Assembly (NCBI RefSeq): GCF_000730385.1
Contig: NZ_CP008849.1
Coordinates: forward strand, 620,001 to 684,000
DNA from: Alteromonas australica
Lineage (GTDB): Bacteria > Pseudomonadota > Gammaproteobacteria > Enterobacterales > Alteromonadaceae
DNA: 64,000 nucleotides
Direction of reading: 5' to 3'
The translations under genes were made by a program, and so were the position numbers. The first letter of the stretch is position 1. Each line of letters opens with the position of its first letter. The notes below the pieces were generated by a model that ran no database searches, had not been told where the DNA came from, and saw only the letters and a program-made list of their open reading frames with translations. Below, one piece after another: positions 1,803 to 15,146 of the stretch.

Positions 1803-1944
1803 TGTAAACTCCGTGAAAGGGTAAGGTGTCATACCCATTGTTCATTTTCGTTTAGTTTTTCACTTATCATGTGTCGCCGCTACGTCTTGCGCCGCATATC
1901 TTTGCTTGTTCGCGATGCCCCAGGAGAAAATGTTTACGATAGCG

Positions 1945-2475
1945 TTATAGTGGGCGTGTTGCACCCAAAGACGGTTTAATCTTCGCAAATATATGATTGT
2001 TATAAAAGCGCCCGTTTTTATAAATGGCATTTTCCAATACCGCTTCCTGATTGAAGTCAGACTTTAACAAAAGCTGCATTGAGGCTTCGTTATCTGAAAA
2101 TACCGAGGCGAATACACGGACAATGTCAGTATTAGAAAAGACGAAATTTGTAATTCTCTGAATGGCACAAGAAGCAATGCCTTGTCGCCAATATTCTCTT
2201 GCAAGCCAGTATCCTATTTCGCCCGACCTGTTGTATTCGAATTCACCTCTATTAACGCCAATACAGCCAACCAAACAATTATCTACCGTAATTGCTTTAA
2301 TAAGCTCACCTTTACTCCCTTCATTTACCCACCATACAGCATCGTCAGTGGTATACGGAGAAGGGATTTTTGTGGATAAAAAGCGTGTCACAGAATCATC
2401 GTTGAGAATGCGCTTCATACTTTCTACGTCACTATCTAAGAAATCTCGCAGCAAAACCGCGTTATGCTTTCCCAT
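1945..2475 (-). CDS. GNAT family N-acetyltransferase (RimJ/RimL-like), likely cassette gene
   Basis: The 176-residue product looks like the RimJ/RimL branch of GNAT acetyltransferases, which move an acetyl group from acetyl-CoA to an amine on a protein, peptide or antibiotic. The motif EIGYWLAREYWRQGIA (about residues 86-101) fits the region before the acetyl-CoA pyrophosphate loop, and SDNEASMQLLLKSDF fits the C-terminal motif of the fold. The last residues (PSLGATRPL) read into a CTATAAC sequence resembling an attC arm, as in clear cassettes to the right, but no second arm can be recognised. The acceptor substrate cannot be inferred. Confidence 0.8.
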   Translation of the reverse strand: MGKHNAVLLRDFLDSDVESMKRILNDDSVTRFLSTKIPSPYTTDDAVWWVNEGSKGELIKAITVDNCLVGCIGVNRGEFEYNRSGEIGYWLAREYWRQGIASCAIQRITNFVFSNTDIVRVFASVFSDNEASMQLLLKSDFNQEAVLENAIYKNGRFYNNHIFAKIKPSLGATRPL

Positions 2476-2517
2476 ACATCAAAGCTCTCTTATCATTGTC
2501 TTTTTGATTTAGGAAAA

Positions 2518-2754
2518 CTATTTATTGCTGCATGAACAACCGACGCTACCATCGTCGCTTTTCCACTGAGAATAGTGGCGATAGTCGCTTGGATTATTTC
2601 GATTGTGAATGCTGCAACTGGTTTTAATTTGATTACACGACGCGGCATTTCGTCCGATATCACTTTGAGTGACATTTTCCAAAAGATGATGGGTTACATC
2701 GTTAACAGAACAACTAGCAAGTAAAAGTGTTGTCGAAATGATAAATATTTTCAT
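2518..2754 (-). CDS. Small cysteine-rich lipoprotein, hypothetical
   Basis: The 78-residue product has a lipoprotein signal peptide with lipobox LLASC, so it should be attached by Cys15 to a membrane. The mature part is polar and has six further cysteines, including a C-terminal GCSC. An AAGGA ribosome site lies 8 bases upstream of the ATG. The gene lies 42 bp after the next gene's start, with no attC between them. No family is recognised and no function is proposed. A putative cassette gene at the decayed end of the array. Confidence 0.6.
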   Translation of the reverse strand: MKIFIISTTLLLASCSVNDVTHHLLENVTQSDIGRNAASCNQIKTSCSIHNRNNPSDYRHYSQWKSDDGSVGCSCSNK

Positions 2755-2792
2755 ACATGTCCTTTGTATATAGAGGCGTATTGAAAAGACGC

Positions 2793-3305
2793 CTATTCAT
2801 ATGTCACTGCCAGAAACAGCTTTGGCTTTTGTTTGTTGGCAGACGGTGTAATACTAGCTGATACACTAACTAACTTCCATTGCCCGCTGCGTTTAGACCA
2901 GACCTGTGTACCCCCACCTGAAAAAGTATAGGTAGCGCCACTTTTTAGCAATACAGATTGCGAAAACTCGTTGACCAAAATCGCAGTGAAATCATCAATG
3001 ATCGACACCTTAACGTTTGGGAATTCCAGAGAGTTAAGCTTTTGTATTGCGCTAAAGCCAGTGTTTATCACTGGAACCAGCTCATCCATAGAGTTCCAGT
3101 TTGTTCCGTCACTATTCAAACCGACAAACTTGTCTGCATCAAAATGTTGAAAATAAGCTTCTGTATCCAGCCTCTTTGATGCTTCTACGAGACTTTGAAA
3201 CGAGTTCAATACTTCTTCCTCTAAATCACTGTGGTTTGGGTTGGCCTGTGCCAAACAACACAGTGATAAAGCAAAAATAACCATAACAACTTTACTTTTA
3301 AACAA
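2793..3305 (-). CDS. Exported NTF2-like (SnoaL/DUF4440 type) protein
   Basis: The 170-residue product has a cleavable signal peptide (MFKSKVVMVIFALSLCC, cleavage near AQA) followed by an NTF2-like cone-fold domain: the VLNSFQSLVEASKRLDTEAY helix and the GGTQVWSKRSGQWKLVSV strand are typical of DUF4440-type proteins. Such proteins may bind small molecules or be non-enzymatic; the role is unknown. The start is TTG at 3305, preferred over the ATG seven codons later because AAGGA lies upstream and the signal peptide needs the lysines. A short inverted repeat (AGGCGT/ACGCCT, 2774..2794) overlaps the stop codon. Confidence 0.7.
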   Translation of the reverse strand: MFKSKVVMVIFALSLCCLAQANPNHSDLEEEVLNSFQSLVEASKRLDTEAYFQHFDADKFVGLNSDGTNWNSMDELVPVINTGFSAIQKLNSLEFPNVKVSIIDDFTAILVNEFSQSVLLKSGATYTFSGGGTQVWSKRSGQWKLVSVSASITPSANKQKPKLFLAVTYE

Positions 3306-3332
3306 TCATTAATTCCTTTTTTCTTTGATATT

Positions 3333-3515
3333 TCACAGCCCACCAAAGGGCGTAGCTACAGAGGGGCGTAATGCTAAGTCGTTTTGAATGGCATTGGGTG
3401 ACTGTGTTGCAGTCCATAATGAAAGGTATTTCTTAGCAAACTCAGATAAATCGGTCTCTGCGAGAGAGACAAAAGACCAGAGTAAAGTAAAAGAAGCAAG
3501 CATCCATCTTTTCAT
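3333..3515 (-). pseudogene. Stub of an exported NTF2-like protein
   Basis: A good ribosome site (AGAGGTGAT) precedes the ATG at 3515. The 60-codon frame encodes a signal peptide (MKRWMLASFTLLWSFVSLAE) and then about 25 residues (DLSEFAKKYLSLWTATQSPN) that look like the first helix of an NTF2-like protein. The frame then ends in ALRPSVATPFGGL, which does not look like continuation of the fold. Full-length relatives are normally around 150 residues, so this is read as a 5' fragment left after a deletion. It is a different lineage from the intact NTF2-like gene just to its left. Confidence 0.5.
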
Positions 3516-3539
3516 AATCACCTCTGTTGTTAAAATTAG

Positions 3540-3595
3540 GTTTAACGCAGCGTTCTTCGTTACCCCGTAACGGGCGACTTCATTTTTTGTTAGGT
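3540..3595 (-). repeat. attC site, short type (56 bp)
   Basis: On the - strand the site starts with ACCTAAC (matching RYYYAAC) and ends with GTTAAAC (matching GTTRRRY). The stop codon of the acetyltransferase gene to its right (TAA) lies inside the first arm. This is the leftmost site with both arms intact. Confidence 0.75.
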
Positions 3596-4084
3596 ATGAA
3601 GTTTCAATTGCCAATACCCAACATCTAACCATTCATCAAATTTAAAGCCTACTTTGGAAAAATGAGCAACTTTTTCCATACCCATTTTTTCGTGTAGACC
3701 AACACTCGCTGGATTAGGTAAGGCTATGCCCCCAATTACATTGTTGATCCCTTTCAGTTTAAGTTTGTTAAACAGTGCTTTATACAAAATGGAACCTACA
3801 CCTTTTCCTTCTGTTCCATTTGCAAGGTAGATAGTTGACTCTACGGAAAACCGATAAGCACTTCTTTCTTTCCATTTAGTGGCATAAGCGTATCCAACCA
3901 CTGCTTCATCGACTACAGCGACAAGCCATGGCAAATCTGAGTCTACGACTTTTTTAAGCCTTATCGACATCTCTTTTTCTGAAACCTTGCGCTCTTCAAA
4001 AGTTGTGCGTGTATTTACAACATAAAAATTGTAGATGTCGGCAATTTCTGATGCATCTTCTAATGCGGCATCTCTAATAATCAT
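3590..4084 (-). CDS. GNAT acetyltransferase, phosphinothricin-acetyltransferase-like
   Basis: The 164-residue protein resembles the PAT/Bar branch of GNAT enzymes: the N-terminus MIIRDAALEDASEIADIYNF followed by TRTTFEE and the acetyl-CoA loop region EGKGVGSILYKALF match that group, and PNPASVGLHEKMGM matches the C-terminal motif. It would acetylate a small amine using acetyl-CoA. The start at 4084 has AAGGAA upstream; the frame is open 18 codons further but with no ribosome site. The stop codon lies in the arm of the attC at 3540..3595, which is typical of a cassette gene. Its exact substrate is unknown. Confidence 0.85.
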   Translation of the reverse strand: MIIRDAALEDASEIADIYNFYVVNTRTTFEERKVSEKEMSIRLKKVVDSDLPWLVAVVDEAVVGYAYATKWKERSAYRFSVESTIYLANGTEGKGVGSILYKALFNKLKLKGINNVIGGIALPNPASVGLHEKMGMEKVAHFSKVGFKFDEWLDVGYWQLKLHT

Positions 4085-4162
4085 CAACAATTCCTTGTGG
4101 TTGTAACTGCGCTTAGTATCTGACTTTAAGCTAAGCAAACCTATAACCCTATTTCCCCGCGT

Positions 4163-4681
4163 TTAAAACTCTTGGCGCGAAAACGCCTTTAACTCGTAGT
4201 GGTCCGCGTGAGCGTTTTGTAAGGTATATTCACCTACTACCTTGATTTGTGATATATCGGTAACCCTAATGTGCGTTTGGTAATAATATTTGCCAGTAGG
4301 CTTTCCCTGAGAAATGAAGTTGATTCTTATCCTTTTAGCCTCACCGGCTACAGCAATTGTTTTCCCAACAAAATATTCCTGTGGAGGAACACTATATCTT
4401 TGAATGAATAAAGGCGTAACACGAGGATGAATTGCTATGGTGACTGCACGTTGGTCACGGTAGTCTAATTCAGAGTTGAGATAAATAAATGGGCCTTGGT
4501 TACCTGCCGCTTTGATTTCTAAAATAAAATCTCCCTGCACACCACTAGGCGCTGATTCTGCGGCACTTCTGATAATTTCCATAGTGTCAGAGTGAACGAT
4601 ATCTGTTTTTAACGAAGAAACAGGCTGTTTTGCAGCACAGCCGGCTAAGACTAAAACGATACTTAATAAAACGATTTTCAT
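4163..4681 (-). CDS. Lipoprotein of unknown function
   Basis: The 172-residue product has a lipoprotein signal peptide with lipobox VLAGC (Cys15). The mature part is rich in beta strands, with FIYLNSELDYRDQRAV and KPTGKYYYQTHIRVTDISQI suggesting a compact OB-like or beta-barrel domain. This is a shape impression only; no named family is recognised. The gene starts 20 bp to the left of a clear attC (4701..4801), so it begins a cassette; its own attC at about 4095..4162 would be degenerate, with only a GCTTAG/CTAAGC stem visible. Confidence 0.65.
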   Translation of the reverse strand: MKIVLLSIVLVLAGCAAKQPVSSLKTDIVHSDTMEIIRSAAESAPSGVQGDFILEIKAAGNQGPFIYLNSELDYRDQRAVTIAIHPRVTPLFIQRYSVPPQEYFVGKTIAVAGEAKRIRINFISQGKPTGKYYYQTHIRVTDISQIKVVGEYTLQNAHADHYELKAFSRQEF

Positions 4682-4700
4682 TTTGAATTTCCTTATAAAT

Positions 4701-4801
4701 GCCTAAATTTTCAATAACGGGCGCATAAATATTCTCGTTATAATTAGCCACGAATGAGCGCAAGCCAAGCATTTTGCGTCCGTTTGAATGACTTGCTAGG
4801 C
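4701..4801 (-). repeat. attC site, long type (101 bp), slightly degenerate
   Basis: On the - strand the outer arms are GCCTAGC and TTTAGGC, each one base from the expected RYYYAAC/GTTRRRY forms, with the inner GCGCCCGTTATTGAAA block shared with the site at 7321. The mismatches may weaken IntI cutting. Confidence 0.65.
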
Positions 4802-4974
4802 AATTTTGCTAACTTGACGTTCATCTTCAACCAAAGTTAGCTTTAATTTAAGAGGTGGCTCCTTGCTCTACTCTAGAATCGACTGGGTTAAAAGTTCTAT
4901 ATCCACCACTATATGCTCCCTTTGTTGTTCTGTATTAATTATGCGTGCAATTCTTCAAAGTAATGGATATCCAT
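4796..4974 (-). pseudogene. Decayed small ORF between DUF2164 gene and its attC
   Basis: Directly after the DUF2164 gene an ATG at 4974 opens MDIHYFEELHA then stops. Shifting by one base gives IINTEQQREHIVVDIELL and, past one in-frame TAG, SKEPPLKLKLTLVEDERQ, ending inside the attC arm. Read together it could be a 55 to 60 residue gene broken by one frameshift and one stop. The evidence is only the protein-like composition and the position where a cassette gene should end. Confidence 0.3.
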
Positions 4975-4990
4975 AGCTTCTTCAATATGC

Positions 4991-5236
4991 CTAACGAACT
5001 TCCTTTTCGATAGCATAGAGGTCATCATCAATGGTTTGAACACGTTCTTCGAAAATCAATCTCGCATCATGCAACCCGCGATTGTAATAATACGCCCCTA
5101 ACTCTTTAGAAACGAAATCTAAAAGAAACTCTGCATCAAATTGCCCCAATTCTTGAGCCAACGATTTTTCAAAATAAGATTGAAGTTTAACTACCATTGC
5201 TTCTTTTTCTTGATTCGTGAATTTAATATCAGACAT
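4991..5236 (-). CDS. DUF2164 family protein
   Basis: The 81-residue product matches DUF2164 through the phrases FTNQEKEAMVVKLQSYFEK, ELGQFDAEFLLDFVSKELG and YYYNRGLHDAR, the last two being the hallmark of the family. It is mainly helical, cytosolic, and of unknown function; length is normal for the family. It is the first gene of the cassette that ends at the attC 4701..4801 and starts 30 bp after the attC 5266..5365. Confidence 0.85.
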   Translation of the reverse strand: MSDIKFTNQEKEAMVVKLQSYFEKSLAQELGQFDAEFLLDFVSKELGAYYYNRGLHDARLIFEERVQTIDDDLYAIEKEVR

Positions 5237-5265
5237 TTACAAATAGGTTCCTAGGCATCTATTGT

Positions 5266-5365
5266 TTCTAACAACGGGCGCAGACAGGTGTGCAATAATG
5301 GCGAAGACGCCCCGCGTGTATGCGTCCGACGAAGAGAGGGAGTGATTTTTTGCACTTTGTTGGGC
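5266..5365 (-). repeat. attC site, long type (100 bp)
   Basis: On the - strand the site runs from GCCCAAC (5359..5365) to GTTAGAA (5266..5272). The centre carries the GGGGCGTCTTCGCC and CGGACGCATACACGC blocks common to the array's long sites, and GCGCCC near the 3' arm. Confidence 0.75.
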
Positions 5366-5374
5366 TTGTGCATA

Positions 5375-5788
5375 TTATTTCCTCGCTCTGCTTGGTTCGA
5401 AACTATCATATCTTGGTAGCTCTGCATCGATATTATCCCAGTTAGCCCTGGATGAATAAAAATTGTGAGATATCGGTCTTTCTTCGATGTCTGTGTCTAG
5501 AATACCAAGACGAATTCTAAGTTTTGTTGGGTTATCCGTGTTTGAGCTAAAAATCGGAGAGGCGCACACAGAGCAGAAATGCCTTAACTTCCCTTCTTTG
5601 AACTTGAAGTGGGTAAGCTTTTTTTCCGGATCTAAGACGCTGAAATCTTCTGTCTTTATGAATCCATTTGTAGCGTATGCCGTGCCACTATTTTTACGAC
5701 ACAGTGAACAGTGACAGTGAATAATGCTATCAATTGAACCCTTGAGTTCAACTTTAATTGCACCACATAAACAAGAGCCCTTGTACAT
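5375..5788 (-). CDS. GFA family zinc-binding protein
   Basis: The 137-residue product belongs to the GFA (glutathione-dependent formaldehyde-activating enzyme-like, CENP-V) family. Zinc-binding cysteines are seen in order: CLCGAI at the N-terminus, HCHCSLCRK near residue 24 and HFCSVCASPIF near residue 71, as in the family. Many GFA proteins have no proven enzymatic role, and the formaldehyde role is disputed. The start at 5788 gives the normal family N-terminus (MYKGSCLCGA); the longer open frame would add 36 residues that are unlike the family and run into the neighbouring attC. Confidence 0.88.
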   Translation of the reverse strand: MYKGSCLCGAIKVELKGSIDSIIHCHCSLCRKNSGTAYATNGFIKTEDFSVLDPEKKLTHFKFKEGKLRHFCSVCASPIFSSNTDNPTKLRIRLGILDTDIEERPISHNFYSSRANWDNIDAELPRYDSFEPSRARK

Positions 5789-5824
5789 CAATAAATCCTT
5801 TATATTATTTCCAAGCAAAGACGT

Positions 5825-5930
5825 GCCTAACTTGTAAACAAGGGGCTCAAACGCGCAAGCTATAATGCGAAGATGCCCCGCGCGTATGCGCCCCAAGAAC
5901 GCAGTAAGTATCTTGGTTGGGTTGTTATAT
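5825..5930 (-). repeat. attC site, long type (106 bp)
   Basis: On the - strand it starts at the ATATAAC that includes the stop codon of the acetyltransferase at 5925 and ends in a perfect GTTAGGC. The centre has GGGGCGCATACGCGCGGGGC, a variant of the block found in the other long sites. Confidence 0.78.
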
Positions 5931-6362
5931 TCCTTTGCGTACCATGTGTATTAGTGGGAAAGGGTTGCCTTGACCGTCTAGCTCAGACCTCCCCACTTTT
6001 TTGAAACCTACTTTTTCATAGAACCCTATAGCATTTGGGTTTTGCTCGTTGACATCAACTTTTGATGCATTCAAATTATCTACTGCATGTTTTACTAAAT
6101 TACGACCAATACCTTCACCAAAATGCTGTGGTTTAATAAAGAGCATTTCAATATTTGAATCTGCAACACCTATAAAGCCGCTTATTTCTTCACCTTGCTT
6201 AGTGCAGCGGAGCGCTACCGCATCAAAATAATGCTGAAGAATAAGAGGCTTTAGTTCAAGAATACTTTCCTCTGGTAAAAAGTCATGAGTTGCACGAACT
6301 GACGCCTCCCAGATTTCGATAAGCTCTTGGTAATTATCCTTTGTGACTTCTAATACGTCCAT
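5925..6362 (-). CDS. GNAT family N-acetyltransferase
   Basis: The 145-residue protein is a compact GNAT enzyme. The acetyl-CoA binding loop is seen as FGEGIGRNLVKHA (about residues 81-93) after the IEMLFIKPQH strand, and QNPNAIGFYEKVGFKKV is the typical C-terminal motif. It should acetylate an unknown small molecule or peptide. AAGGA lies 7 bases before the ATG. The stop codon is inside the attC arm, so this is a single-gene cassette, the third intact GNAT gene of the array. Confidence 0.88.
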   Translation of the reverse strand: MDVLEVTKDNYQELIEIWEASVRATHDFLPEESILELKPLILQHYFDAVALRCTKQGEEISGFIGVADSNIEMLFIKPQHFGEGIGRNLVKHAVDNLNASKVDVNEQNPNAIGFYEKVGFKKVGRSELDGQGNPFPLIHMVRKGI

Positions 6363-6377
6363 TGAGGCTTCCTTGGA

Positions 6378-6450
6378 ATATAACGTCTAAATAACGCCGC
6401 GCTCTGCGGAAAATTTATCTGGCAGCAGGGGCTTGGGCGATTTGTTAGCC
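6378..6450 (-). repeat. attC site, short type (73 bp)
   Basis: On the - strand it starts with GGCTAAC, which includes the stop codon of the ParE remnant, and ends with GTTATAT; the inner segment GCGCGGCGTTATTTAGAC resembles the 3' half of the long sites. Confidence 0.65.
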
Positions 6451-6558
6451 GCGGTCGTGCCAATACTCAGGTTTTCGTTGGTTATGCATAAAAGCTACCA
6501 CACTAATTTCCCTATTTTCGATAACTTTATAAATAATAGAATATGGGAATATGCTTAA
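6445..6558 (-). pseudogene. C-terminal remnant of a ParE/RelE-type toxin
   Basis: The - strand frame ending at the TAA in the attC arm reads FPYSIIYKVIENREISVVAF then MHNQRKPEYWHDRG. That is the standard C-terminal strand pair and tail of ParE/RelE-fold toxins (compare the usual FPYSIIYRV and HxxRxPxYW). The upstream part, about 60 residues, is missing: the frame runs rightward straight into the attC of the next cassette, and no start or antitoxin gene is present. A deletion between two cassettes explains this. The fragment should be inactive. Confidence 0.72.
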
Positions 6559-6559
6559 G

Positions 6560-6657
6560 CAAAGCGCCTCGTTAAGAGGCAAAAAATTGTTAGCTAAAAT
6601 TAGCGACGAAAGAGCAAAAGCCAACGGCTTTTTGTCCTTTTAAACCACTCGTTAGCT
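6560..6657 (-). repeat. attC site, long type, damaged 3' arm
   Basis: On the - strand the first arm AGCTAAC (6651..6657) includes the stop codon of the gene at 6652. A GAAAGAGCAAAAGCC-type stem and TAATTTTAGC follow. The expected GTTRRRY arm is replaced by GCTTTGC after CTTAACGAGGCG, at the point where the ParE remnant begins, so the site was probably altered by the same deletion. Confidence 0.55.
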
Positions 6658-6846
6658 GTCGGTTCTGCTATTGGACTTTAACTTTTTAGCAATTAGGTCA
6701 ACAAGTAGAAAAGCTATTCCTGCAAAAACACCAAATACTATTGCTTCATTTTGTTTTGATATATACCCCGAAAAGACATATAGAAACAAAGCGCCTGCTA
6801 CACCAACAAACGCTCCGATAACAATAGATTTCAATAATGATTCCAT
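6652..6846 (-). CDS. Small two-helix membrane protein, unknown
   Basis: The 64-residue product has two predicted transmembrane helices (about residues 7-26, IVIGAFVGVAGALFLYVF, and 37-54, AIVFGVFAGIAFLLVDLI) separated by a short polar turn, and a basic tail KKLKSNSR. It should sit in the inner membrane. AGGAG is placed 10 bases before the ATG at 6846. The stop codon lies in the attC arm. No family is recognised; holin-like or small stress membrane peptides are possible but unsupported. Confidence 0.6.
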   Translation of the reverse strand: MESLLKSIVIGAFVGVAGALFLYVFSGYISKQNEAIVFGVFAGIAFLLVDLIAKKLKSNSRTDS

Positions 6847-6866
6847 GTATTGATTCTCCTTTAGAC

Positions 6867-6981
6867 TGCTAACACCCAACTTTGGGGCACAAATACATGG
6901 GCTAAAATAGCGAGTGAAGCGAGGGAGCCCACGTGTATGCGTCCAGCGAACGGAGGGAAAGAGTTTATTGAGTTGTTAGGC
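6867..6981 (-). repeat. attC site, long type (115 bp)
   Basis: On the - strand it runs from GCCTAAC (6975..6981) to GTTAGCA (6867..6873). It includes GCTGGACGCATACACGTGGG and CTATTTTAGCCCATG, which pair as the central stem. Confidence 0.78.
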
Positions 6982-7005
6982 CGTGCTGATAAGTTAGTCA
7001 TGCTA

Positions 7006-7305
7006 TTAATAAAACTCCGTAAATCTCTCTGAGAAACCATTGATCTGCTTAGCTTCTAGAAGGCCATCTGATTTCATTAATGCAAGTTGTAGCATAGCTT
7101 TGGACTTTGCATTGTAATTGAATATGTTCGCTATACGTTTGTCACTATTTTCCATCAACTTATACAGGTAAAGATATTTTGCATGAGCTGAAAGTTCGGG
7201 ATTATCGATTCCTTTACGCACATCGTCAAAAACTTGCTGGCAGCATTTATCTAATGCATCTGCCTTAACTCGTTTGAAGTGATTCCAATCTGCCTCTGAA
7301 ATCAT
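7006..7305 (-). CDS. Hypothetical cassette protein, mostly helical
   Basis: The 99-residue product is soluble, charged and looks all-helical (start MISEADWNHFKRVKADALDK, later AHAKYLYLYKLMENSDKR and a C-terminal MLQLALMKSDGLL). It has two adjacent cysteines near residue 21. No signal peptide or membrane helix is seen. No named family is recognised. It lies alone between the attC sites 6867..6981 and 7321..7424 and is a single-gene cassette. No function is proposed. Confidence 0.6.
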   Translation of the reverse strand: MISEADWNHFKRVKADALDKCCQQVFDDVRKGIDNPELSAHAKYLYLYKLMENSDKRIANIFNYNAKSKAMLQLALMKSDGLLEAKQINGFSERFTEFY

Positions 7306-7320
7306 GTTTTACCTCTTTAG

Positions 7321-7424
7321 GCCTAACTTTTCAATAACGGGCGCAGACATGTGGGACATAATGGCGAAGCCGCCCCGCGTATAGGCGTCCCAGCTAACGA
7401 AGTGAGTGACTTAATTTTTTATAT
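7321..7424 (-). repeat. attC site, long type (104 bp), weak first arm
   Basis: The 3' arm is a perfect GTTAGGC on the - strand (7321..7327) with GCGCCCGTTATTGAAA before it. The central block GGGACGCCTATACGCGGGGC matches other sites. The 5' arm is AT-rich (GAATATAAA) and only loosely fits RYYYAAC. Confidence 0.68.
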
Positions 7425-8147: not shown

Positions 8148-8162
8148 GTGACCTCCTTGTGA

Positions 8163-8270
8163 ATATAACTTTAAGCTAAAGGGCGCAGGCACGTAGGGCA
8201 TAATGGCGAAGCCGCCCTGCGTGTATGCGTCCCAGCGAACGAAGTGAGTGGGTTTATTGAATTGCTATAT
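8163..8270 (-). repeat. attC site, long type (108 bp)
   Basis: On the - strand it runs from ATATAGC (8264..8270) to GTTATAT (8163..8169). The central stem arms ACGTAGGGC and GCCCTGCGT enclose a GGC-GAA-GCC hairpin, nearly identical to the site at 11799..11907. Confidence 0.75.
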
Positions 8271-8276
8271 CGCCGT

Positions 8277-8690
8277 TCACCAATATTTCTTCGTATCAAT
8301 ATAGTGCTTCATGTTAGAAAAGATGTAAGCTAGAAGAAAAAATGCCGGCGTCGCAATTACGTCGGGTTTTATGAACCAAGTTAGTAGGCCCAAAAGCACC
8401 GTCGTCATTTCTAACATAATAATTTGCTTTCTTGCTTTTACTCCCCAAAACGAAAACCTGACCCATAACGGCTCTTTTTTCCATTCATTAGATGTTTTGT
8501 CTATCACGATAATTTCCTCTTGAAGTTTAGAAATGTCAATTTCAAACACAGAGGCAAGGGCTTTAAGAGATTCTATGCTGGCCTTGTTTCCACTTTCTAT
8601 TCGTTGAATAGTTCTCGTACTCAAGCCGCTTAACGTGGCAAGTTGTTCTTGTGACCAGTTTCGTTTTTCTCTAAGACGTTTGACTATCAT
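8277..8690 (-). CDS. XRE-type HTH protein fused to a two-helix membrane domain
   Basis: The 137-residue product starts with an XRE/Cro helix-turn-helix (about residues 1-58: KRNWSQEQLATLSGLSTRTI then QRIESGNKASIESLKALA). After a linker, two membrane helices follow (about 92-108 and 112-130, MTTVLLGLLTWFI and ATPAFFLLAYIF) in the style of 2TM domains attached to HTH regulators. It is probably a DNA-binding regulator held at the inner membrane. Target genes are unknown; no operator pattern was found next to it. AGGAG lies 7 bases before the ATG. It is a single-gene cassette with a 100-bp leader. Confidence 0.8.
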   Translation of the reverse strand: MIVKRLREKRNWSQEQLATLSGLSTRTIQRIESGNKASIESLKALASVFEIDISKLQEEIIVIDKTSNEWKKEPLWVRFSFWGVKARKQIIMLEMTTVLLGLLTWFIKPDVIATPAFFLLAYIFSNMKHYIDTKKYW

Positions 8691-8790
8691 TTGGGCTCCT
8701 TACCAATGCGAGAGGAAACTATCCATGTTTTAATCGATTGTCGGTTACGAAATCCACACGACAGTGGGGCGACAGACGATGTTTACAGCG

Positions 8791-8871
8791 ATACAACTTT
8801 GACTTAAGGCGCGCCATGTCATTGGCCCAGTGAGCCCGCTTTTTGGCGAACGACTTAAGCGTTTGTTATGC
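8791..8871 (-). repeat. attC site (81 bp) of the first toxin-antitoxin cassette
   Basis: On the - strand the 5' arm is GCATAAC followed by AAACGCTTAAGTCG, close to Vibrio repeat style; the 3' end is CGCGCCTTAAGTCAAAGTTGTAT, where GTTGTAT is a one-off GTTRRRY. The CTTAAGTC sequences in both halves pair. Confidence 0.62.
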
Positions 8872-8875
8872 ACTA

Positions 8876-8919
8876 TTGACTTACAGTGCTCAAATACCAT
8901 AATTAGGTATATATTGGTA
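8876..8919 (+). promoter_or_regulatory. Promoter and operator of parD-parE cassette
   Basis: TTGACT (8876..8881) and CATAAT (8898..8903) are spaced by 16 bp. An interrupted inverted repeat TACCAtaat...tatTGGTA (8895..8919) covers the -10 and start region, suggesting autorepression by the RHH antitoxin. Starts 5 bp past the attC, so the cassette carries its own promoter. Confidence 0.6.
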
Positions 8920-8933
8920 CTTGGAGAAAACAA

Positions 8934-9176
8934 ATGGCTAAAAATACCAGCATTACCCTTGGTGACCATTTTGATGGCTTTATTGCTCGCCAAATTCAAA
9001 CTGGTCGATATGGTTCAGCGAGCGAAGTAATTCGGTCTGCTCTTCGCTTGCTAGAAACACAGGAGACCAAATTAAACACTTTGCGTCAATTACTTGTAGC
9101 AGGTGAAGAAAGCGGCGAGGCTGAATACGACCTTGAGAACTTGATATCAGAACTAGATGGTGAATTAAAAGAGTGA
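8934..9176 (+). CDS. parD: Type II antitoxin, ParD family
   Basis: The 80-residue protein is a ParD-like antitoxin with an N-terminal ribbon-helix-helix DNA-binding domain (NTSITLGDHFDGFIARQI then YGSASEVIRSALRLLE) and a C-terminal acidic toxin-binding tail (EAEYDLENLISELDGELKE). It should neutralise the ParE toxin encoded next and repress their shared promoter. GGAGAAAAC precedes the ATG. It runs against the direction of the other cassette genes, which is possible because it has its own promoter. Confidence 0.88.
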   Translation: MAKNTSITLGDHFDGFIARQIQTGRYGSASEVIRSALRLLETQETKLNTLRQLLVAGEESGEAEYDLENLISELDGELKE

Positions 9177-9475
9177 AACCATTTAAGTTAACTGTACTCG
9201 CAAAATCCGATTTAAAAGATATCGCGTTATTTACGCAACGGAAATGGGGGAGGGAACAGCGTAATGTGTACCTAAAACAGTTCGACGATTCATTTTGGAT
9301 GTTGTCTGAAAATCCTGTTATCGGTAAAAGCTGCGACGAAATAAGAGACGGATACAGAAAGTTTCCGCAAGGTAGTCACGTTATTTTCTACAAGCAAACT
9401 GGTAGCCAGGAAATTCTGATTATAAGAATTCTTCATAAAAGTATGGATGTAAACCCTTTACGCTTTGGCGCATAA
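9173..9475 (+). CDS. parE: Type II toxin, ParE family
   Basis: The 100-residue product matches ParE toxins, which in studied cases act on DNA gyrase: LTVLAKSDLKDIALFTQRKW forms the N-terminal helices, and FPQGSHVIFYKQ with ILIIRILHKSMD is the usual C-terminal sheet. The start is GTG at 9173, overlapping the antitoxin stop by four bases (GTGA), so translation is coupled. The stop codon falls inside the 3' arm of the attC of the neighbouring cassette (9470..9476), leaving almost no spare DNA at the cassette junction. Confidence 0.88.
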   Translation: MKPFKLTVLAKSDLKDIALFTQRKWGREQRNVYLKQFDDSFWMLSENPVIGKSCDEIRDGYRKFPQGSHVIFYKQTGSQEILIIRILHKSMDVNPLRFGA

Positions 9476-9517
9476 CGCCGCATTCAGCGGCTTGTCCGCT
9501 GCAATGCTTTGTTAGCC
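9470..9517 (-). repeat. attC site, very short type (48 bp)
   Basis: On the - strand it runs GGCTAAC...GTTATGC. Internal GCAGCGGACAAGCCGCTG forms a simple stem (CAGCGG/CCGCTG). The amidohydrolase frame reads through the 5' arm and stops inside the site. Confidence 0.75.
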
Positions 9518-10965
9518 ATAGTATCTGCAGCAAAATCTGTTCGATCAAAAACTTCCCCATGTAAGATGACTTGGTGGATATTGCTCCAAGCGTCCACGGT
9601 AGTTAAAGGGTTTTGTTTTAGTAAAAGTAAATTTGCAACCTTGCCAACTTCAACCGTTCCGTAATCTTCATCAATATTAAATTGTCGCGCATTATTAATG
9701 GTTGCAGCTGCAAGTATTGCAACTAAAGATACTCCGGCGTCTGCCATTGCTTTCATCTCAAGGAAAGTTGTTAAACCAGGCTGGTTGGAAAAACTAGGAC
9801 TTCCCGGAAAATCAGAACCTAATAACAGCGGATAGCCTGCCTCGGTGAGGGTTTGTAGAATTTTGTTACCTTTCCCCATCCGATCTTTTAAAAAGATTCG
9901 AGCAATAACCTCGTCGGGTAGTTCGTCAAATCCTGCGCGTAATTCTTCTTTAAACCATTGTGCCGAAGGTTGCTTATACCACTCAAGTAATTCTTTGGGC
10001 GTGACCTTACTAAATTCAGGAATACCATGTGAGTTATGCAACATGAGTTCACCTAGTCCGGCAATTACCCTTTGGGTTGGCATGTAACCAATGCTTTTGC
10101 TCATTAACTGGTTAATCACGCCATGCATTGGTTTGGATACTTCAGTTTCACGCCAAAACTCCCCCCAATTCCAAAGCCCGTGTGCAATTACATCTACCTC
10201 TGCATCAATAGCTCTTTGATACATATCCAATGCATTGGCATGCGCTACAAGAGGTAGTTTATGTGGTAATGCAGATTTTCGAATACGTTTCAGGGTATCG
10301 TCAGACAACAACGGCCACTGACTTTCATCCCCATAGCCATCTTCAAAGTATACTTTTATGCAAGATGCGCCGGATTCAGCAATACGTTTAACAATTTGCT
10401 CAGGAGAGTTCAGTGCTGTTTCAGCAACGTCCTGTTCAACAATATAGGAAAACATGGATTTCGAAAGCTCATCATTTTTCTCTACCAAAGGAAACGTTGA
10501 GCGTGCGGTGATGACTTCACAACGATAGTAATCAGGATGTACTTTAGAAGAAGTGAATTTTGTCCATTCAAGCCCAGGATTTGGGTCGACAACCTGCGTG
10601 ATACCGTAATACAAAAAGCTATAGGGTTGTTGTTTATAGTAATCTTCAGCAAGTGCGCCATTCTTTTGTGCCACAGGCTCCACGCCAAACCCCATACCAG
10701 GAATAGATGAAACATGAACATGGCTATCCATGATTCCGGGTGCTAGATATAAAGTAGTTCCGTCTATGACCTGAGTATCAACTGTTTTTTTAATATTAGA
10801 TGACGATACCGTTTTTATCCGTCCATCAGCAATAAGAACATGCGCCTTTTGTAATGGCCTCTGAAGGTGCGATGATACGACGGTCACATTTTCAATCAGC
10901 ACACTCTCTTTTGCGAAAGTAGGATAATGTAGAAACAGAATCGCAATGAGGATATGTTTACGCAT
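9484..10965 (-). CDS. Exported amidohydrolase family protein, cassette gene
   Basis: The 493-residue protein has a signal peptide (MRKHILIAILFLHYPTFA) and an amidohydrolase TIM barrel: the metal-binding HxH motif is SHVHVS after LAPGIMD (about residue 81), PLVAHANALDMY holds a barrel-strand histidine, and LLGSDFPGSP holds the late aspartate. The domain end fits imidazolonepropionase-like members (GTVEVGKVANLLLLKQNPL). It probably hydrolyses a cyclic amide or peptide-like bond in the periplasm; substrate unknown. Its last residues (ANKALQRTSR) are encoded by the attC, seen widely in cassette genes. AAGGAAAG precedes the ATG. It is the largest cassette here. Confidence 0.87.
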   Translation of the reverse strand: MRKHILIAILFLHYPTFAKESVLIENVTVVSSHLQRPLQKAHVLIADGRIKTVSSSNIKKTVDTQVIDGTTLYLAPGIMDSHVHVSSIPGMGFGVEPVAQKNGALAEDYYKQQPYSFLYYGITQVVDPNPGLEWTKFTSSKVHPDYYRCEVITARSTFPLVEKNDELSKSMFSYIVEQDVAETALNSPEQIVKRIAESGASCIKVYFEDGYGDESQWPLLSDDTLKRIRKSALPHKLPLVAHANALDMYQRAIDAEVDVIAHGLWNWGEFWRETEVSKPMHGVINQLMSKSIGYMPTQRVIAGLGELMLHNSHGIPEFSKVTPKELLEWYKQPSAQWFKEELRAGFDELPDEVIARIFLKDRMGKGNKILQTLTEAGYPLLLGSDFPGSPSFSNQPGLTTFLEMKAMADAGVSLVAILAAATINNARQFNIDEDYGTVEVGKVANLLLLKQNPLTTVDAWSNIHQVILHGEVFDRTDFAADTMANKALQRTSR

Positions 10966-10988
10966 AACTTTCCTTGTTGTTGTGATCT

Positions 10989-11065
10989 GGCTAACACCCG
11001 CATTACGGGCAAAAACACGTAGGCTACAATACCAAGCGAAGCGAGTGTTAATGCTTTTGTTATAT
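10989..11065 (-). repeat. attC site (77 bp) of the second toxin-antitoxin cassette
   Basis: On the - strand it runs from ATATAAC (11059..11065) to GTTAGCC (10989..10995), with GCTTCGCTTGG in the centre and TGCCCGTAATGCGGGTGTTAG at the 3' end. Confidence 0.72.
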
Positions 11066-11070
11066 GCAAT

Positions 11071-11104
11071 TTGCTACATCTGTAGCGCATTGCTACAATG
11101 TAAC
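11071..11104 (+). promoter_or_regulatory. Promoter with two operator palindromes for the second TA cassette
   Basis: TTGCTA (11071..11076) and TACAAT (11094..11099) are spaced by 17 bp. A perfect palindrome GCTACA-TC-TGTAGC (11073..11086) covers the -35 side, and a near repeat GCTACA-A-TGTAAC (11092..11104) covers the -10. This is the layout of an autoregulated toxin-antitoxin promoter. Confidence 0.68.
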
Positions 11105-11127
11105 GGCTAACTATTGGGAGACATATT

Positions 11128-11349
11128 ATGGCAACCGCGAGCGTAAGACTAGACCAAGATCTAGTTGAGAAAGCTACCATTATGGGCAAAGCACTAAACC
11201 GAACGATGCCAAAACAGATTGAGCATTGGGCAAAGATAGGTGAAATGATGGAAGATAATCCCGATTTGCCATACGAATTTGTGAAACAGGCAATTATTTC
11301 TAAAGCTGAAAAAGAGGCTGGAAAATTGGAGCCTTACGATTTTGGCTAA
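11128..11349 (+). CDS. Type II antitoxin, ParD-like
   Basis: The 73-residue product fits the ParD-like antitoxin family: a short RHH-type start (TASVRLDQDLVEKATIMGKA then LNRTMPKQIEHWAKIGEMM) and a C-terminal tail with ISKAEKEAGKLEPYDFG. It should bind the two operators upstream and neutralise the toxin that follows. GGGAG lies 8 bases before the ATG. It is inverted relative to the array and is unrelated in sequence to the first ParD cassette. Confidence 0.82.
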   Translation: MATASVRLDQDLVEKATIMGKALNRTMPKQIEHWAKIGEMMEDNPDLPYEFVKQAIISKAEKEAGKLEPYDFG

Positions 11350-11632
11350 GATTACCAATGTTTTACAGACAGCTAATTTTAAGAGAGCAGTAAAGAAGTT
11401 ACATCAGAATCAGAAAAAAGACTTGGATAAAGCCGTTAAGGAACTAATGGCCGATCCTCCTCTAGGTGAGCAGAAAAAAGGCGACCTAGCCTTTCTTCGC
11501 GTGTACAAATTCAAGATGGTCAAGCAGTTAACCTTACTAGGTTACAGCTACGAGGATGGCACTGTAATACTTGAATTGATAGCTCTTGGTTCTCATGAAA
11601 ATTTTTACCGCGATGTTAAAAAGTTGTTCTGA
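11342..11632 (+). CDS. Type II toxin, RelE/ParE superfamily
   Basis: The 96-residue product has a RelE/ParE-like toxin architecture: TANFKRAVKKLHQNQKKDLD at the N-terminal helices, DPPLGEQKKGDLAFLRVYKF through the central sheet, and a final LIALGSHENFYRDVKKLF. RelE-type toxins cut mRNA on the ribosome while ParE-type poison gyrase; which applies here cannot be told. The start is TTG at 11342, overlapping the antitoxin end by eight bases, so translation is coupled. The gene ends 8 bp before the neighbouring attC. Confidence 0.82.
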   Translation: MAKITNVLQTANFKRAVKKLHQNQKKDLDKAVKELMADPPLGEQKKGDLAFLRVYKFKMVKQLTLLGYSYEDGTVILELIALGSHENFYRDVKKLF

Positions 11633-11640
11633 CCAATTGC

Positions 11641-11711
11641 GTATAACACTAAGCTAAGGGGCAAAAGCACAATGCGAGAATAGCGAAGCCGCATTGTGTT
11701 TTTGTCCCAGC
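11641..11711 (-). repeat. attC remnant lacking its 5' arm
   Basis: The 3' half is normal (GCCCCTTAGCTTAGTGTTATAC on the - strand ends at 11641) and the central stem CACAATGCGG/CGCATTGTG is intact, but the RYYYAAC arm is absent; the sequence joins the coding sequence of a GNAT fragment. It is probably a deletion product and could not fold into a complete site. Confidence 0.65.
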
Positions 11712-11777
11712 GCGATATAAATCAAAAACTTTTGAGGCAGCTTCAATTTTAGTTTTATCAGCCCTATAAATTTCCAT
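11649..11777 (-). pseudogene. N-terminal fragment of a GNAT acetyltransferase fused to an attC
   Basis: An ATG at 11777 behind GGAAA starts MEIYRADKTKIEAASKVFDL then YR, which looks like the first strand and helix of GNAT proteins (compare EIREA...AAPLFDAYR). After residue 22 the reading frame runs into attC sequence (AGTKTQCGFAILALC) and stops at 11649. The remaining 120 or so residues expected of a GNAT enzyme are missing. The fragment supports loss of DNA spanning the gene end and attC 5' arm. Confidence 0.6.
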
Positions 11778-11798
11778 TTTACTGTAATTTCCTTTTAG

Positions 11799-11907
11799 GT
11801 ATAACACTAAGCTTTGGGGCGCAGGCACGTAGGGCATAATGGCGAAGCCGCCCTGCGTGTATGCGTCCCAGCCCGCGAAGCGGGCGTGCTTGATTTTTTT
11901 GTTATGT
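11799..11907 (-). repeat. attC site, long type (109 bp)
   Basis: On the - strand it runs from ACATAAC (11901..11907) to GTTATAC (11799..11805), with GCTTCGCGGGCTGGGACGCA and the ACGTAGGGC/GCCCTGCGT stem. The best-preserved example of the array's long type. Confidence 0.82.
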
Positions 11908-11916
11908 GCAATTGCT

Positions 11917-12135
11917 TCAAACATCAAATTGCTCTTTTACTACTGTTTTGTCTATTTTGGAGAGAACTGGCTGACCTCCTCCATGTAACGCACCATCTGG
12001 GTAACTTTTAATCCAGTAACAGCCATTCTCTTTTTCTATATACAGACTGTCCCAACCGCTTTTACTAACAGCGACCTTTTTACACTTGGTACTGACAAAA
12101 TCTTCAATCTCTATTTGCGAAGAGATGACATCCAT
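11917..12135 (-). CDS. Imm27-like immunity protein
   Basis: The 72-residue product resembles immunity protein 27, a family found with polymorphic toxins: the block SGWDSLYIEKENGCYWIKSY then PDGALHGGGQPVL matches the family's GWxxLYxxxxxGRYWELxYP and MHGGGPPxL. It should bind and block a toxin effector in the cytosol. No matching toxin gene is next to it; the second cassette of the array holds it alone. The start at 12135 gives a complete domain; codons upstream belong to attC sequence. An orphan immunity gene would protect against attack by kin bacteria. Confidence 0.72.
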   Translation of the reverse strand: MDVISSQIEIEDFVSTKCKKVAVSKSGWDSLYIEKENGCYWIKSYPDGALHGGGQPVLSKIDKTVVKEQFDV

Positions 12136-12150
12136 ATTTAACAACCTTGC

Positions 12151-12266
12151 ACATAACACCCCACTAAGGGGCGATAACACATGGGCTAAAATTAGGAACG
12201 AAGTGACGCAGCCCATGTGTTAGCGTCCCAGCGAGCGAAGCGAGAGCCTTGAGTGGTTTGTTATGT
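12151..12266 (-). repeat. attC site, long type (116 bp), first in the array
   Basis: On the - strand it runs from ACATAAC (12260..12266) to GTTATGT (12151..12157). GCACATAAC and GTTATGTGC extend the complementarity of the arms. The centre pairs CTAACACATGGGCT with AGCCCATGTGTTA, a long stem. Confidence 0.83.
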
Positions 12267-12644
12267 GCCACTGACTGATTTAGCCACAACAAACCCACTG
12301 AAACCGATGGCTGACTCGATATACCAGCCCTTGTAACCATTACTATCAAGATAATTTACTGTAGTTTCAATATCGCCTTTCCATATATCGACGCCGTAAT
12401 ATAGATTCCATTTTTGGAGATTTTCCTTTTCTTCTTCGAAAAGAGAACTAAGCGGTATGTTTTCAATGTCAGTGATAATCGAATGCGCAGTATGCACAAA
12501 GTGATATATCGCAACTTCTGTGAAGGTGATTTCCGAAAAATCAGTTTCTTTACCTGGATAGCCAAATCCTAAAAATAATTTTACAGTTTTCCCATGGTCG
12601 GCAACTTCGTATTTTTGAAGATGATAATCGTGAAATTTCAACAT
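12261..12644 (-). CDS. Hypothetical protein in the first cassette
   Basis: The 127-residue product is acidic and soluble, with no signal peptide or membrane helix. It mixes helices and strands (KLFLGFGYPGKETDF, IYHFVHTAHSIITDIENIPL, YGVDIWKGDIETTVNYLDSN, GWYIESAIGFSGFVV). No family is recognised with confidence; the size and acidity are like immunity or inhibitor proteins, which is only an impression. AAGGAAG lies 10 bases before the ATG at 12644. Its stop codon overlaps the attC. Being next to attI, it should be the most recently inserted and the best expressed from the integron promoter. Confidence 0.62.
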   Translation of the reverse strand: MLKFHDYHLQKYEVADHGKTVKLFLGFGYPGKETDFSEITFTEVAIYHFVHTAHSIITDIENIPLSSLFEEEKENLQKWNLYYGVDIWKGDIETTVNYLDSNGYKGWYIESAIGFSGFVVAKSVSGT

Positions 12645-12665
12645 AGTCAGTTGAGCTTCCTTGGC

Positions 12666-12740
12666 ACATAACAACTTAATGTACGGAAAAAATCCTTTAT
12701 GCAACGTGGATAAAATCCGCATATAACTTTAATAATTTAC
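12666..12740 (-). other. attI-like insertion site and first cassette junction
   Basis: The junction TTAAGTTGTTATGTGCC (- strand, read from 12682 to 12666) contains the crossover sequence GTTATGT identical to the 3' arm of the attC at 12151. The stretch to its right up to intI has no gene and is AT-rich. The exact right limit of attI cannot be set by eye. The cassette promoter Pc should be in 12700..12880 on the - strand, but no convincing -35/-10 pair was found. Confidence 0.6.
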
Positions 12741-12797
12741 TCACTTTCGCATGTAATGTCATTTACATCAATATCCTATACTTTGTATCTGAAAACA

Positions 12798-12813
12798 CTG
12801 TACTGAAGTACGG
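12798..12813 (+). promoter_or_regulatory. Degenerate LexA-like box between attI and intI
   Basis: CTGTACTGAAGTACGG matches CTG-N10-CAG except for CGG in place of CAG; its core GTACT-GA-AGTAC is a perfect palindrome. It could be a weak second LexA site or the operator of another regulator. Confidence 0.35.
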
Positions 12814-12856
12814 AAAGTTTCCTTTTTATTTTACGGCGCACTAAAAAGTCGTAATG

Positions 12857-12872
12857 CTGTGCTTATATACAG
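12857..12872 (+). promoter_or_regulatory. LexA (SOS) box upstream of intI
   Basis: CTGTGCTTATATACAG fits the gammaproteobacterial consensus CTGT-N8-ACAG exactly and lies 17 bp before the intI start codon, where it would cover the promoter or start site. Integron integrases in Vibrio and mobile integrons are known to be SOS-controlled in this way. Confidence 0.8.
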
Positions 12873-12889
12873 ATAAAAAGTACTAACAA

Positions 12890-13858
12890 ATGAAATCAAT
12901 GTTTATGCAAATGGTGGTTGAGCATATGCGTAATCGTCGCTATGCCAAACGCACGATAGAGCTTTATAGCAAATGGATAATTAGCTTTATTCGCTTCAAT
13001 GATAATAGGCATCCATCAGAGATGGGAGATAAAGACGTAGAGTTATTTCTGTCTTATTTGGTGAACAAGAAAAATGTCGCTCCCGCAACACAAGCGAGTG
13101 CGCTTAATGCATTGGCGTTTCTTTATCGCGATATATTGGAATGTCCATTGTCGTTAGAGTTAGACTTTGTTTCAAGTCGAAGGCAGGCCAAGTTACCTGT
13201 CGTACTAACGCAAGACGAGGTAGTTGCGCTATTTGAACAAATTCCTGCCAACCTAAAACTCCCTATATCCCTACTATATGGCAGTGGTTTGCGTTTAATG
13301 GAGGCCGTAAGGCTACGTGTTAAAGATATTGATTTCGACTACAACGCCATTCGTATATGGGATGGTAAAGGCGGAAAGCATCGTATCGTTACACTTGCGG
13401 CAGAATTGAAGCCGGGTCTTACTCGGCAAATAGCCATGGTGGAAAATTACCTATCAGCTGATTTAGAAAACCCGAAATATGCGGGCGTTTATTTGCCGCA
13501 TAGACTGCGGGTGAAATACAAAAATGCGCCAAGAGAATTAGGCTGGCATTATTTATTTCCGTCTTCTCGGTTATCTATAGATCCGGAGGATAAGAAAGTA
13601 CGCCGGCATCATATTGATGAATCGAGTATTCAGAAGGCCATACGAAATACGGCAAAAGCTTGCGACATTAAAAAGAAAGTGACGCCTCATACATTGCGCC
13701 ATTCTTTTGCAACGCATTTGCTACAAGCGGGCGCCGACATAAGAACTGTGCAAACACAGCTTGGTCACTCAGATGTGAAAACTACACAAATTTACACTCA
13801 CGTGCTTCAGCAAGGCGCTCAGGGTGTGGTAAGTCCTTTATCTCGCGTATTAAAGTAA
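12890..13858 (+). CDS. intI: Integron integrase (tyrosine recombinase)
   Basis: The 322-residue protein joins attC and attI sites using folded single strands. The tyrosine recombinase residues are all visible: Arg in YGSGLRLMEAVRLRV (about 138), His-x-x-Arg in TPHTLRHSFATHLL (about 266-269), His in LGHSDVKTTQ (about 292) and the nucleophile Tyr in IYTHVL (about 301). The extra segment special to IntI proteins is present (GVYLPHRLRVKYKNAPRELG and the following WHYLFPSSRL, about 198-227). Length fits complete, functional IntI (usually 320-340). It diverges from the cassettes and carries a LexA box upstream. Confidence 0.95.
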   Translation: MKSMFMQMVVEHMRNRRYAKRTIELYSKWIISFIRFNDNRHPSEMGDKDVELFLSYLVNKKNVAPATQASALNALAFLYRDILECPLSLELDFVSSRRQAKLPVVLTQDEVVALFEQIPANLKLPISLLYGSGLRLMEAVRLRVKDIDFDYNAIRIWDGKGGKHRIVTLAAELKPGLTRQIAMVENYLSADLENPKYAGVYLPHRLRVKYKNAPRELGWHYLFPSSRLSIDPEDKKVRRHHIDESSIQKAIRNTAKACDIKKKVTPHTLRHSFATHLLQAGADIRTVQTQLGHSDVKTTQIYTHVLQQGAQGVVSPLSRVLK

Positions 13859-13884
13859 TGTGCACATCAAGTTAACGTCAATAA

Positions 13885-13964: not shown

Positions 13965-15146
<1,182 letters not shown>

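Follow-up and report, generated by a model that had tools for sequence, protein, structure and literature searches.

The name superintegron is given to arrays of more than about 20 gene cassettes, and that of Vibrio cholerae holds well over a hundred. In Xanthomonas an integron occurs across the genus beside one conserved gene, ilvD, and its integrase gene intI is reported to be vertically inherited with rare exceptions (PMC12444791). The closest described system is that of Alteromonas itself. For A. australica and A. macleodii, PMC4119200 (2014) described the integron with its attC sites, three attC regions, transcription and cassettes of the toxin-antitoxin kind, and noted that the trees of intI and of the species disagree. 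An attC model for the Alteromonadales was built in PMC8352920, where co-evolution of IntI and attC was proposed. Integrons 'typically' have one initial attachment site (attI) near the integrase according to PMC9024848, which states that attI outside class 1 is poorly described and is undetected by IntegronFinder 2.0. Here we analyze a stretch of 64,000 nucleotides (the window), positions 620001-684000 of the closed 4,308,833-base genome of A. australica. We regard it as probable that the window holds the hub of the Alteromonas sedentary chromosomal integron, with attI-headed satellite arrays elsewhere that are most likely fed in trans. We read it as an integron hub because of its IntI match, its attC models with their covariation, and breaks in homology at the attI core.

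The integrase gene (Table 1) is the sole match above the TIGR02249 cut-off in a profile search of the whole genome. Its product has the Pfam domains PF00589 and PF13495 and aligns over residues 2-320 with the V. cholerae IntI (PDB 2A3V; phmmer E 3e-124). It is an integron-type tyrosine recombinase on the basis of the TIGR02249 score and this full-length match. The gene points to fadA, its back to the array, which is the classical arrangement. The full-length alignment and the opposition of intI to its cassettes are both shared with the V. cholerae superintegron. A CTGT-N8-ACAG box, which has the consensus for LexA binding and is a predicted binding site here, starts 33 bases upstream of the intI start codon. 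It is found at a similar distance in 15 of 18 named loci with a close IntI (L038-L055), the three without it being L045, L046 and L048. A preliminary description of this DNA had placed a sedentary chromosomal integron beside fadBA, and the integrase score and a directional attC array bear this out.

The attI was located by breaks in homology to three relatives. A. profundi (L038) is 98.5% identical to the window from 12668 to 15267 (the end of the compared stretch), through intI and fadA, and in the 1.6 kb to the left of 12668 only attC copies match. Homology to two further congeners breaks at 12663 (G001) and 12669 (G010). These core-position breaks point to an attI beside intI.

The attC sites were scored with two covariance models. 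R1 was built on six hand-picked sites of the window, and R2 from the best 150 of 167 attC matches from 19 sources (a Bowmanella locus and 18 stretches from the genus Alteromonas or from this genome). R1 finds eight minus-strand sites in the window at E <= 4.5e-8, six of which are its training set. R2 was run on 1-14000 with filters off, and the remaining 50 kb of the window, taken as control, gave a maximum of 11.1 bits. It recovers the eight sites of R1 and adds two, at 6560-6673 and 10962-11065. Three further matches score 12.7-13.6 bits, and two hand-read sites are not above the control. The tally is therefore ten model-supported sites, three suggestive and two hand-read only, corresponding to about 10-15 cassettes between about 3540 and 12266. 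Sites of the array are thus scored by the models, yet the count of 17-20 cassettes in the preliminary description was too high and its left boundary at 1945 is not borne out. Since the leftmost attC is at 3540, the genes at 1945-3539 have no support as cassettes. With 10-15 sites beside intI the hub is not a superintegron, and differs in this from the array of V. cholerae. Two minus-strand matches above control, 9820-9871 (13.9 bits) and 8945-9056 (12.0 bits), lie inside genes and were taken as false. Three plus-strand R2 matches (11816-11869, 12168-12229 and 8181-8231; 14.1-18.5 bits) mirror strong sites. Searching by rule for R boxes and a stem gave, at one threshold, 12 matches on the minus strand of the array and 14 on its wrong strand, compared with 26 and 27 on the two strands of the other 50 kb and 4.75 in shuffles; this was too unspecific and was replaced by the covariance models. 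At gathering thresholds Rfam gave no match, either in the window or in three distal-array stretches.

In the R2 alignment of 150 sites the central block ACGTAGGGC...GCCCTGCGT forms the attC stem. Double-sided changes in the hairpin number 491 cells, where shuffling gives a mean of 185.6, a count that leans toward the model that made the alignment. Double changes occur in 18 of 24 pairs (15.5 in shuffles), 88% of cells are paired, and slid versions score far lower. The attC hairpin is thus strongly supported. All 167 matches at E <= 1e-6 in the 19 sources point one way within each array; weak mirror matches appear only at looser limits. The main type of site here is 104-116 bp long.

Genome-wide, R1 at E < 0.004 finds at least 67 attC sites, a lower bound with 150 of 482 candidates scored. 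Besides the eight in the window there are clusters of 42 at 1284-1318 kb (plus strand), 12 at 2083-2094 kb (minus) and three at 1376-1378 kb (minus). Each of these three integrase-free clusters of at least three sites is headed by a copy of the hub attI in the orientation of its array. The copies extend from the core to 12832-12833 and lack the LexA-like box, and the three stretches contain no IntI match at E <= 1. One cassette-sized stretch separates attI from the first scored attC at 2094756 and 1283638, and about 1 kb at 1379290. The genome therefore has one intI above the cut-off and four attI copies, which makes this integron a variant rather than a non-member. The further arrays with attI at their heads lay beyond what the preliminary description could see. 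IS110-family transposase genes occur in the distal arrays at L151:8367-9737 (1307366-1308736 of this genome) and L153:7361-8311; the former element is found at >99% identity at four places in one congener (G013).

The attI stretch was sought in 60 genomes, comprising this one, 35 congeners and 24 others. It is present in 21, namely this genome and 20 of the 35 congeners, and in none of the 24. Thirty of 45 places were fetched. Sixteen have IntI alongside and 14 do not, one of the latter being from our own genome. Twelve of the 14 orphan loci have attC in the flank; every one of the 29 matches lies on the array side and is correctly oriented. One orphan address is common to six congeners, three with type-B integrase (G013, G024, G028) and three with type A (G017, G020, G035; the types are defined below). 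There the DNA following attI is 79-91% identical over ~1.56 kb and contains no intI, and in all 15 pairs the homology ends at a point from -13 to +1 relative to the core. The absence of intI probably predates the split of these genomes because the neighboring DNA is so similar, and the cassettes have changed since because homology of the conserved flank stops at the core. Further orphan pairs (L227/L229 and L234/L236) stop at 0 and +1. Breaks at the core position of an attI without intI suggest an integrase acting in trans. The type-B relatives G013, G019, G024, G028 and G034 have no match to the window attI at fadA (E <= 1e-4), and have one or two orphan copies elsewhere. Stretches at 2094205-2094306 in G013 and 2426900-2427002 in G019 are ~72% identical to the region upstream of type-B intI and lie near attC; they are perhaps orphan attI copies of type B.

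An intI match above the cut-off is present in all 35 congeners, with a stop in that of G009. Its convergent position close to fadA in 23 of them confirms fadA as the conserved flank; 33 of the 35 genomes were computed together for this count, G009 and G023 coming from separate searches. In three more (G006, G022, G027) intI is within 3 kb of fadA, and in G016 contig ends prevent placement. The fadA-side stretches of the eight congeners with intI elsewhere contain no attC at E <= 0.001, and in one of them (G026) the distance from fadA to an Nramp-like gene is ~3 kb. The YHYH gene, which had been taken as the outer flank, is found beyond the array in none of eight closed congeners, and an FMN reductase in one. 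The outer flank instead lies 1.8 kb to the left of the window. Beyond the array six of the eight closed congeners have homologs of an Nramp-like transporter (28.2 bits, just below its cut-off of 29.8), a solute-binding protein and one further gene; G004 and G009 lack them. No transposase was found among 20 open reading frames (ORFs) of the window scanned with Pfam. The integron thus has a chromosomal place with conserved flanks, and without association with a transposon or plasmid.

The fadA-adjacent integrases form two lineages in a tree of 103 rows, A (including that of the window) and B. Other Alteromonas integrases belong to lineage C, shared with Pseudoalteromonas and others, or to a distant lineage D (two rows), and none of these is flagged beside fadA. 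The integrases that alternate at fadA are only 57-58% identical. In a fadA tree of 29 rows the nine type-B rows correspond to at least four changes on well-supported branches, and six on the tree. The sister of L160 (B) is L043 (A), and that of L168 (B) is L039 (A). Compared in 60-base steps, L043 and L160 are 92-100% identical in fadA and 52-75% in intI, with the break after the intI stop; the values for L039 and L168 are 88-100% and 50-82%. In four genomes blastn homology begins at 13673, which hinted at a mosaic intI with an intragenic crossover. This reading was rejected, as the C-terminus is 62-93% identical in other integrases with type B not above them, and in the alignment the break falls after the intI stop.

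The attC family does not follow these lineages. Among loci with at least 1.5 kb on the array side (27 of 80 named loci were dropped as shorter), R1 reaches 75 bits in 15 of 16 Alteromonas loci, the exception being L047. Of 37 loci from other hosts, three do so (L078 from Pseudoalteromonas, L095 from Bowmanella and L113 from a metagenome-assembled genome). Alteromonas sp. LOR, the host of L047, has a second intI (L109, lineage C) that, unlike the first, has attC sites. Within lineage C, 75 bits are reached in 5/5 Alteromonas loci and 2/14 others (p = 0.002, not strict for related rows), and 90 bits in 4/5 and 1/14. The best R1 scores in closed type-B genomes are 102-121 bits genome-wide. In L164 (from G009; lineage D with a broken intI), an R2 site of 112 bits lies 1.2 kb from intI. 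The integrase matches of G009 (L164, L165 and L166) comprise one with a stop, one partial without a stop and one partial with two stops. In Alteromonas the family thus accompanies integrases of four lineages; the fourth was seen in two genomes, of which one has a stop in intI. Twelve Vibrio loci, several with a short array side, have no R1 sites at E <= 0.05. The preliminary description had assigned the integron an attC family of its own. The sites are indeed taxon-specific, but with four integrase lineages and integrase-free arrays the family is not tied to the integrase of the window.

The features of the array are listed in Table 1. Cassette content varies between relatives, and a conserved gene order in strains lacking intI, which would have counted against an integron, was not observed. 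For nine of the 14 window segments compared, the loci of other genomes hold no copy that spans half of it, and the toxin-antitoxin cassettes are the most widely shared. That at 11128-11632 has copies of 91-98% identity in seven loci, representing six genomes (two loci are on the same contig), and that at 8934-9475 has ~90% identical copies in three. Both have copies in G013, G019, G024 and G028 in the same sense relative to their arrays. No attC above the R2 control lies between the GNAT and lipoprotein-like ORFs. Of ten small cassette proteins scanned with PADLOC, only the helix-turn-helix (HTH) protein had matches.

Table 1. Features of the integron and its satellites. Positions are those of the window, except for the orphan attI copies, which are numbered on the genome.
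Feature	Position	Strand	Evidence and remarks
Suggestive attC, leftmost of array	3540-3595	-	R2 12.7 bits
GNAT and lipoprotein-like ORFs	3590-4681	-	Pfam for GNAT
Degenerate attC-like site, hand-read only	4701-4801	-	R2 10.9 bits, not above control
DUF2164 cassette	4991-5236	-	PF09932
attC, degenerate R' box (hand reading)	5266-5365	-	R2 40.6 bits
GFA-family cassette	5375-5896	-	PF04828
attC	5825-5930	-	R2 67.3 bits
GNAT cassette	5925-6362	-	PF13673
Suggestive attC	6378-6450	-	R2 13.6 bits
Divergent attC	6560-6673	-	R2 25.1 bits, E 4e-4
attC	6867-6981	-	R2 77.3 bits
Cassette ORF, no Pfam	7006-7305	-	91-93% copies in two loci
attC, degenerate R'' box	7321-7424	-	R2 87.3 bits
SIMPL-domain protein cassette	7425-8201	-	PF04402
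attC	8163-8270	-	R2 113.3 bits
HTH protein cassette	8277-8690	-	PF01381
Suggestive attC	8791-8871	-	R2 13.4 bits, control maximum 11.1
ParD/ParE toxin-antitoxin cassette, against array direction	8934-9475	+	PF03693, PF05016
Short attC-like site, hand-read only	9470-9517	-	R2 9.3 bits, not above control
Amidohydrolase cassette	9484-10965	-	PF01979
attC	10962-11065	-	R2 20.3 bits, E 0.007
ParD-like/ParE-like toxin-antitoxin cassette, against array direction	11128-11632	+	PF11903, PF15781
attC, degenerate R'' box (hand reading)	11641-11738	-	R2 55.2 bits
attC, cassette 2 (Imm27-like ORF 11917-12216, PF15590)	11799-11907	-	R2 100.5 bits
attC, cassette 1 (ORF 12261-12722, no Pfam)	12151-12266	-	R2 99.4 bits
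attI, core ACATAAC/GTTATGT at 12666-12672 and conserved leader to 12833	12666-12833		Homology breaks
LexA-like box CTGT-N8-ACAG	12857-12872		Read in sequence
intI, integron integrase, 322 aa	12890-13858	+	TIGR02249 465.7 bits, cut-off 265
fadA, conserved right flank	13965-15128	-	58-114 bases from intI, convergent, 23/35 congeners
Orphan attI copy, heads 42-site cluster	1283472-1283638		70%, E 2e-9
Orphan attI copy, heads 3-site cluster	1379266-1379456		70%, E 4e-13
Orphan attI copy, heads 12-site cluster	2094756-2094920		89%, E 3e-58

Two families of gene-less cassettes were observed elsewhere in the genome. The first, of ~314 bases, has seven copies, at 1286225-1286538 (plus strand; L150:7226-7539), 1299559, 1305672, 1306557, 2093107, 2094022 and 2094442. 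It is found in 16 of the 35 congeners (up to 11 copies, the counts being lower bounds), in none of 24 genomes of other genera, and on two A. macleodii plasmids. It has no Rfam match, and in 34 copies the longest ATG-initiated ORF has a median of 40 and a maximum of 72 amino acids. Its hairpin covaries, with 6 of 19 pairs changed on both sides and 36 cells against 14.0 in shuffles, although pair types are not above the shuffles. A promoter-like element lies near the 3' end in 34/34, by a pattern written after the fact. The second family (L150:17345-17647, or 1296344-1296646 of this genome; 18 copies aligned) has a median longest ORF of 29 amino acids and slight covariation (2 of 62 pairs). For Vibrio, promoter cassettes without a gene have been described (PMC11014356); one search of the open-access literature gave none for Alteromonas.

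A number of observations weigh against a hub with satellites supplied in trans. Core boxes are degenerate at several attC sites of the window, and the six promoter-like sites predicted for a Pc promoter reading the array do not exceed chance (3.6 expected). Eight of the 35 congeners have the integron away from fadA (G002, G009, G012, G015, G023, G026, G031 and G033), and for L047, which has a type-A intI next to fadA, a stretch of 10 kb yielded no attC. Among the orphan matches to the window attI many span just 57-89 bases or are ~70% identical, two orphan loci (L227 and L235, the latter with 0.3 kb on that side) have no attC, and single attC sites at 1536 kb and 2354 kb have no attI match in the fetched stretches. 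The integrase-free arrays might instead be relics, old integrons that have lost intI and uptake and retain attI as a left-over, with only the hub alive. Such attC clusters have been proposed to be degraded integrons (PMC9024848), insertions are more frequent beside the integrase (PMC4119200), and two of the three orphan copies here are just 70% identical to the hub attI. Yet at the six-genome orphan attI the well-conserved flank loses homology at the core in every pair with no intI present, and the satellites contain repeated gene-less cassettes with high-scoring attC sites, leaving the relic explanation unlikely. That the whole system has decayed, the genomes differing through homologous recombination of whole islands, seems very unlikely: the degenerate boxes and the three broken or partial integrase matches of G009 are in keeping with decay, but not the breaks at the attI core of hub and satellites, nor an intact intI with its conserved LexA-like box.

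The two integrase types at fadA might have arisen by ancient duplication and differential loss rather than by replacement in place. Two full-length intI genes are present in G012 and G018, and a full-length gene with a partial or broken one in G004 and G032, as such a history would leave. We nevertheless think this improbable, since the types alternate between the closest relatives of the fadA tree (L043/L160 and L039/L168) in one and the same place, and the break follows the intI stop. A mobile integron on a transposon or conjugative element is scarcely credible; the two A. macleodii plasmids carry one gene-less cassette, whereas the address within 114 bases of fadA recurs in most congeners, and the scanned ORFs of the window include no transposase.

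The hub with satellites can be built into a mechanism from what is read in the sequence, namely its anatomy, the attC structure, attI at the array heads, the breaks at attI, the alternation of integrases and the shared attC family; the system is probably active at present. IntI would be induced in the SOS response through the LexA-like box, and would recombine attC sites, as a folded strand, with the attI at 12666-12672. Cassettes would enter next to intI and be read leftward on the minus strand, while the two reversed toxin-antitoxin cassettes would use their own promoters. Sites with degenerate core boxes are probably weak or dead. The three arrays without intI would be satellites, most likely supplied by the integrase in trans. 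In most Alteromonas the hub appears to keep its address between fadBA and the transporter cluster, where intI would have been exchanged several times in place for a divergent one, plausibly by homologous recombination, and the cassettes and attC family would form a genus-wide pool. We lean toward a network in which one integrase feeds several attI-headed arrays, and in which the hub integrase can be exchanged while satellites, cassettes and attC family stay.

The integron is real and has already been described for the species, and we have corrected its boundaries, cassette count and flank. The statement that superintegrons of Alteromonas are much less described is half true, given the account in PMC4119200. 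The integron fGI-2/fGI3 of that paper is very probably the same locus, with the same integrase-free attC regions, toxin-antitoxin cassettes and strain-variable cassettes. Part of the large distal array falls on an H17 island that the paper lists at 1298.6-1318.0 kb, and its H17-only phosphorothioation island (79.7-110.6 kb) spans dndC of this genome at 94-96 kb; the genome is on these grounds probably that of strain H17T. The coordinates given for the integron (634953-650653, row 'H17-DE170') do not match those found here. The attC sites were 55-87 bp long there, shorter than our main type, and the third region was absent in H17T, whereas we find three further clusters and two single sites. 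The available text of PMC4119200 makes no mention of fadA, a LexA box, attI at the integrase-free regions, attI breaks or one attC family under several integrases. Our satellites fit the definition of CALIN, attC clusters without an integrase (PMC9024848), but carry attI at the head, with breaks there. The Xanthomonas integron is likewise genus-wide beside one conserved gene, but its intI is inherited vertically (PMC12444791) whereas that of Alteromonas alternates in place. In the open-access literature we found no Alteromonas paper under the name 'sedentary chromosomal integron', and no report of breaks at the hub attI core, of attI-headed satellites with breaks at attI, or of integrase alternation with a shared attC family.

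The hub alone adds little, as it has been published. The satellites suggest why there are attC arrays without an integrase and why these remain variable, in that they carry the entry site, which an integrase located elsewhere could use. If the network is correct, the likeness of attC sites within a taxon would be a property of the cassette pool of the host rather than of co-evolution with one integrase, contrary to the proposal of PMC8352920 that IntI and attC co-evolve. That integrases alternate at one address is a natural experiment on whether attC is shaped by the integrase or by the host.

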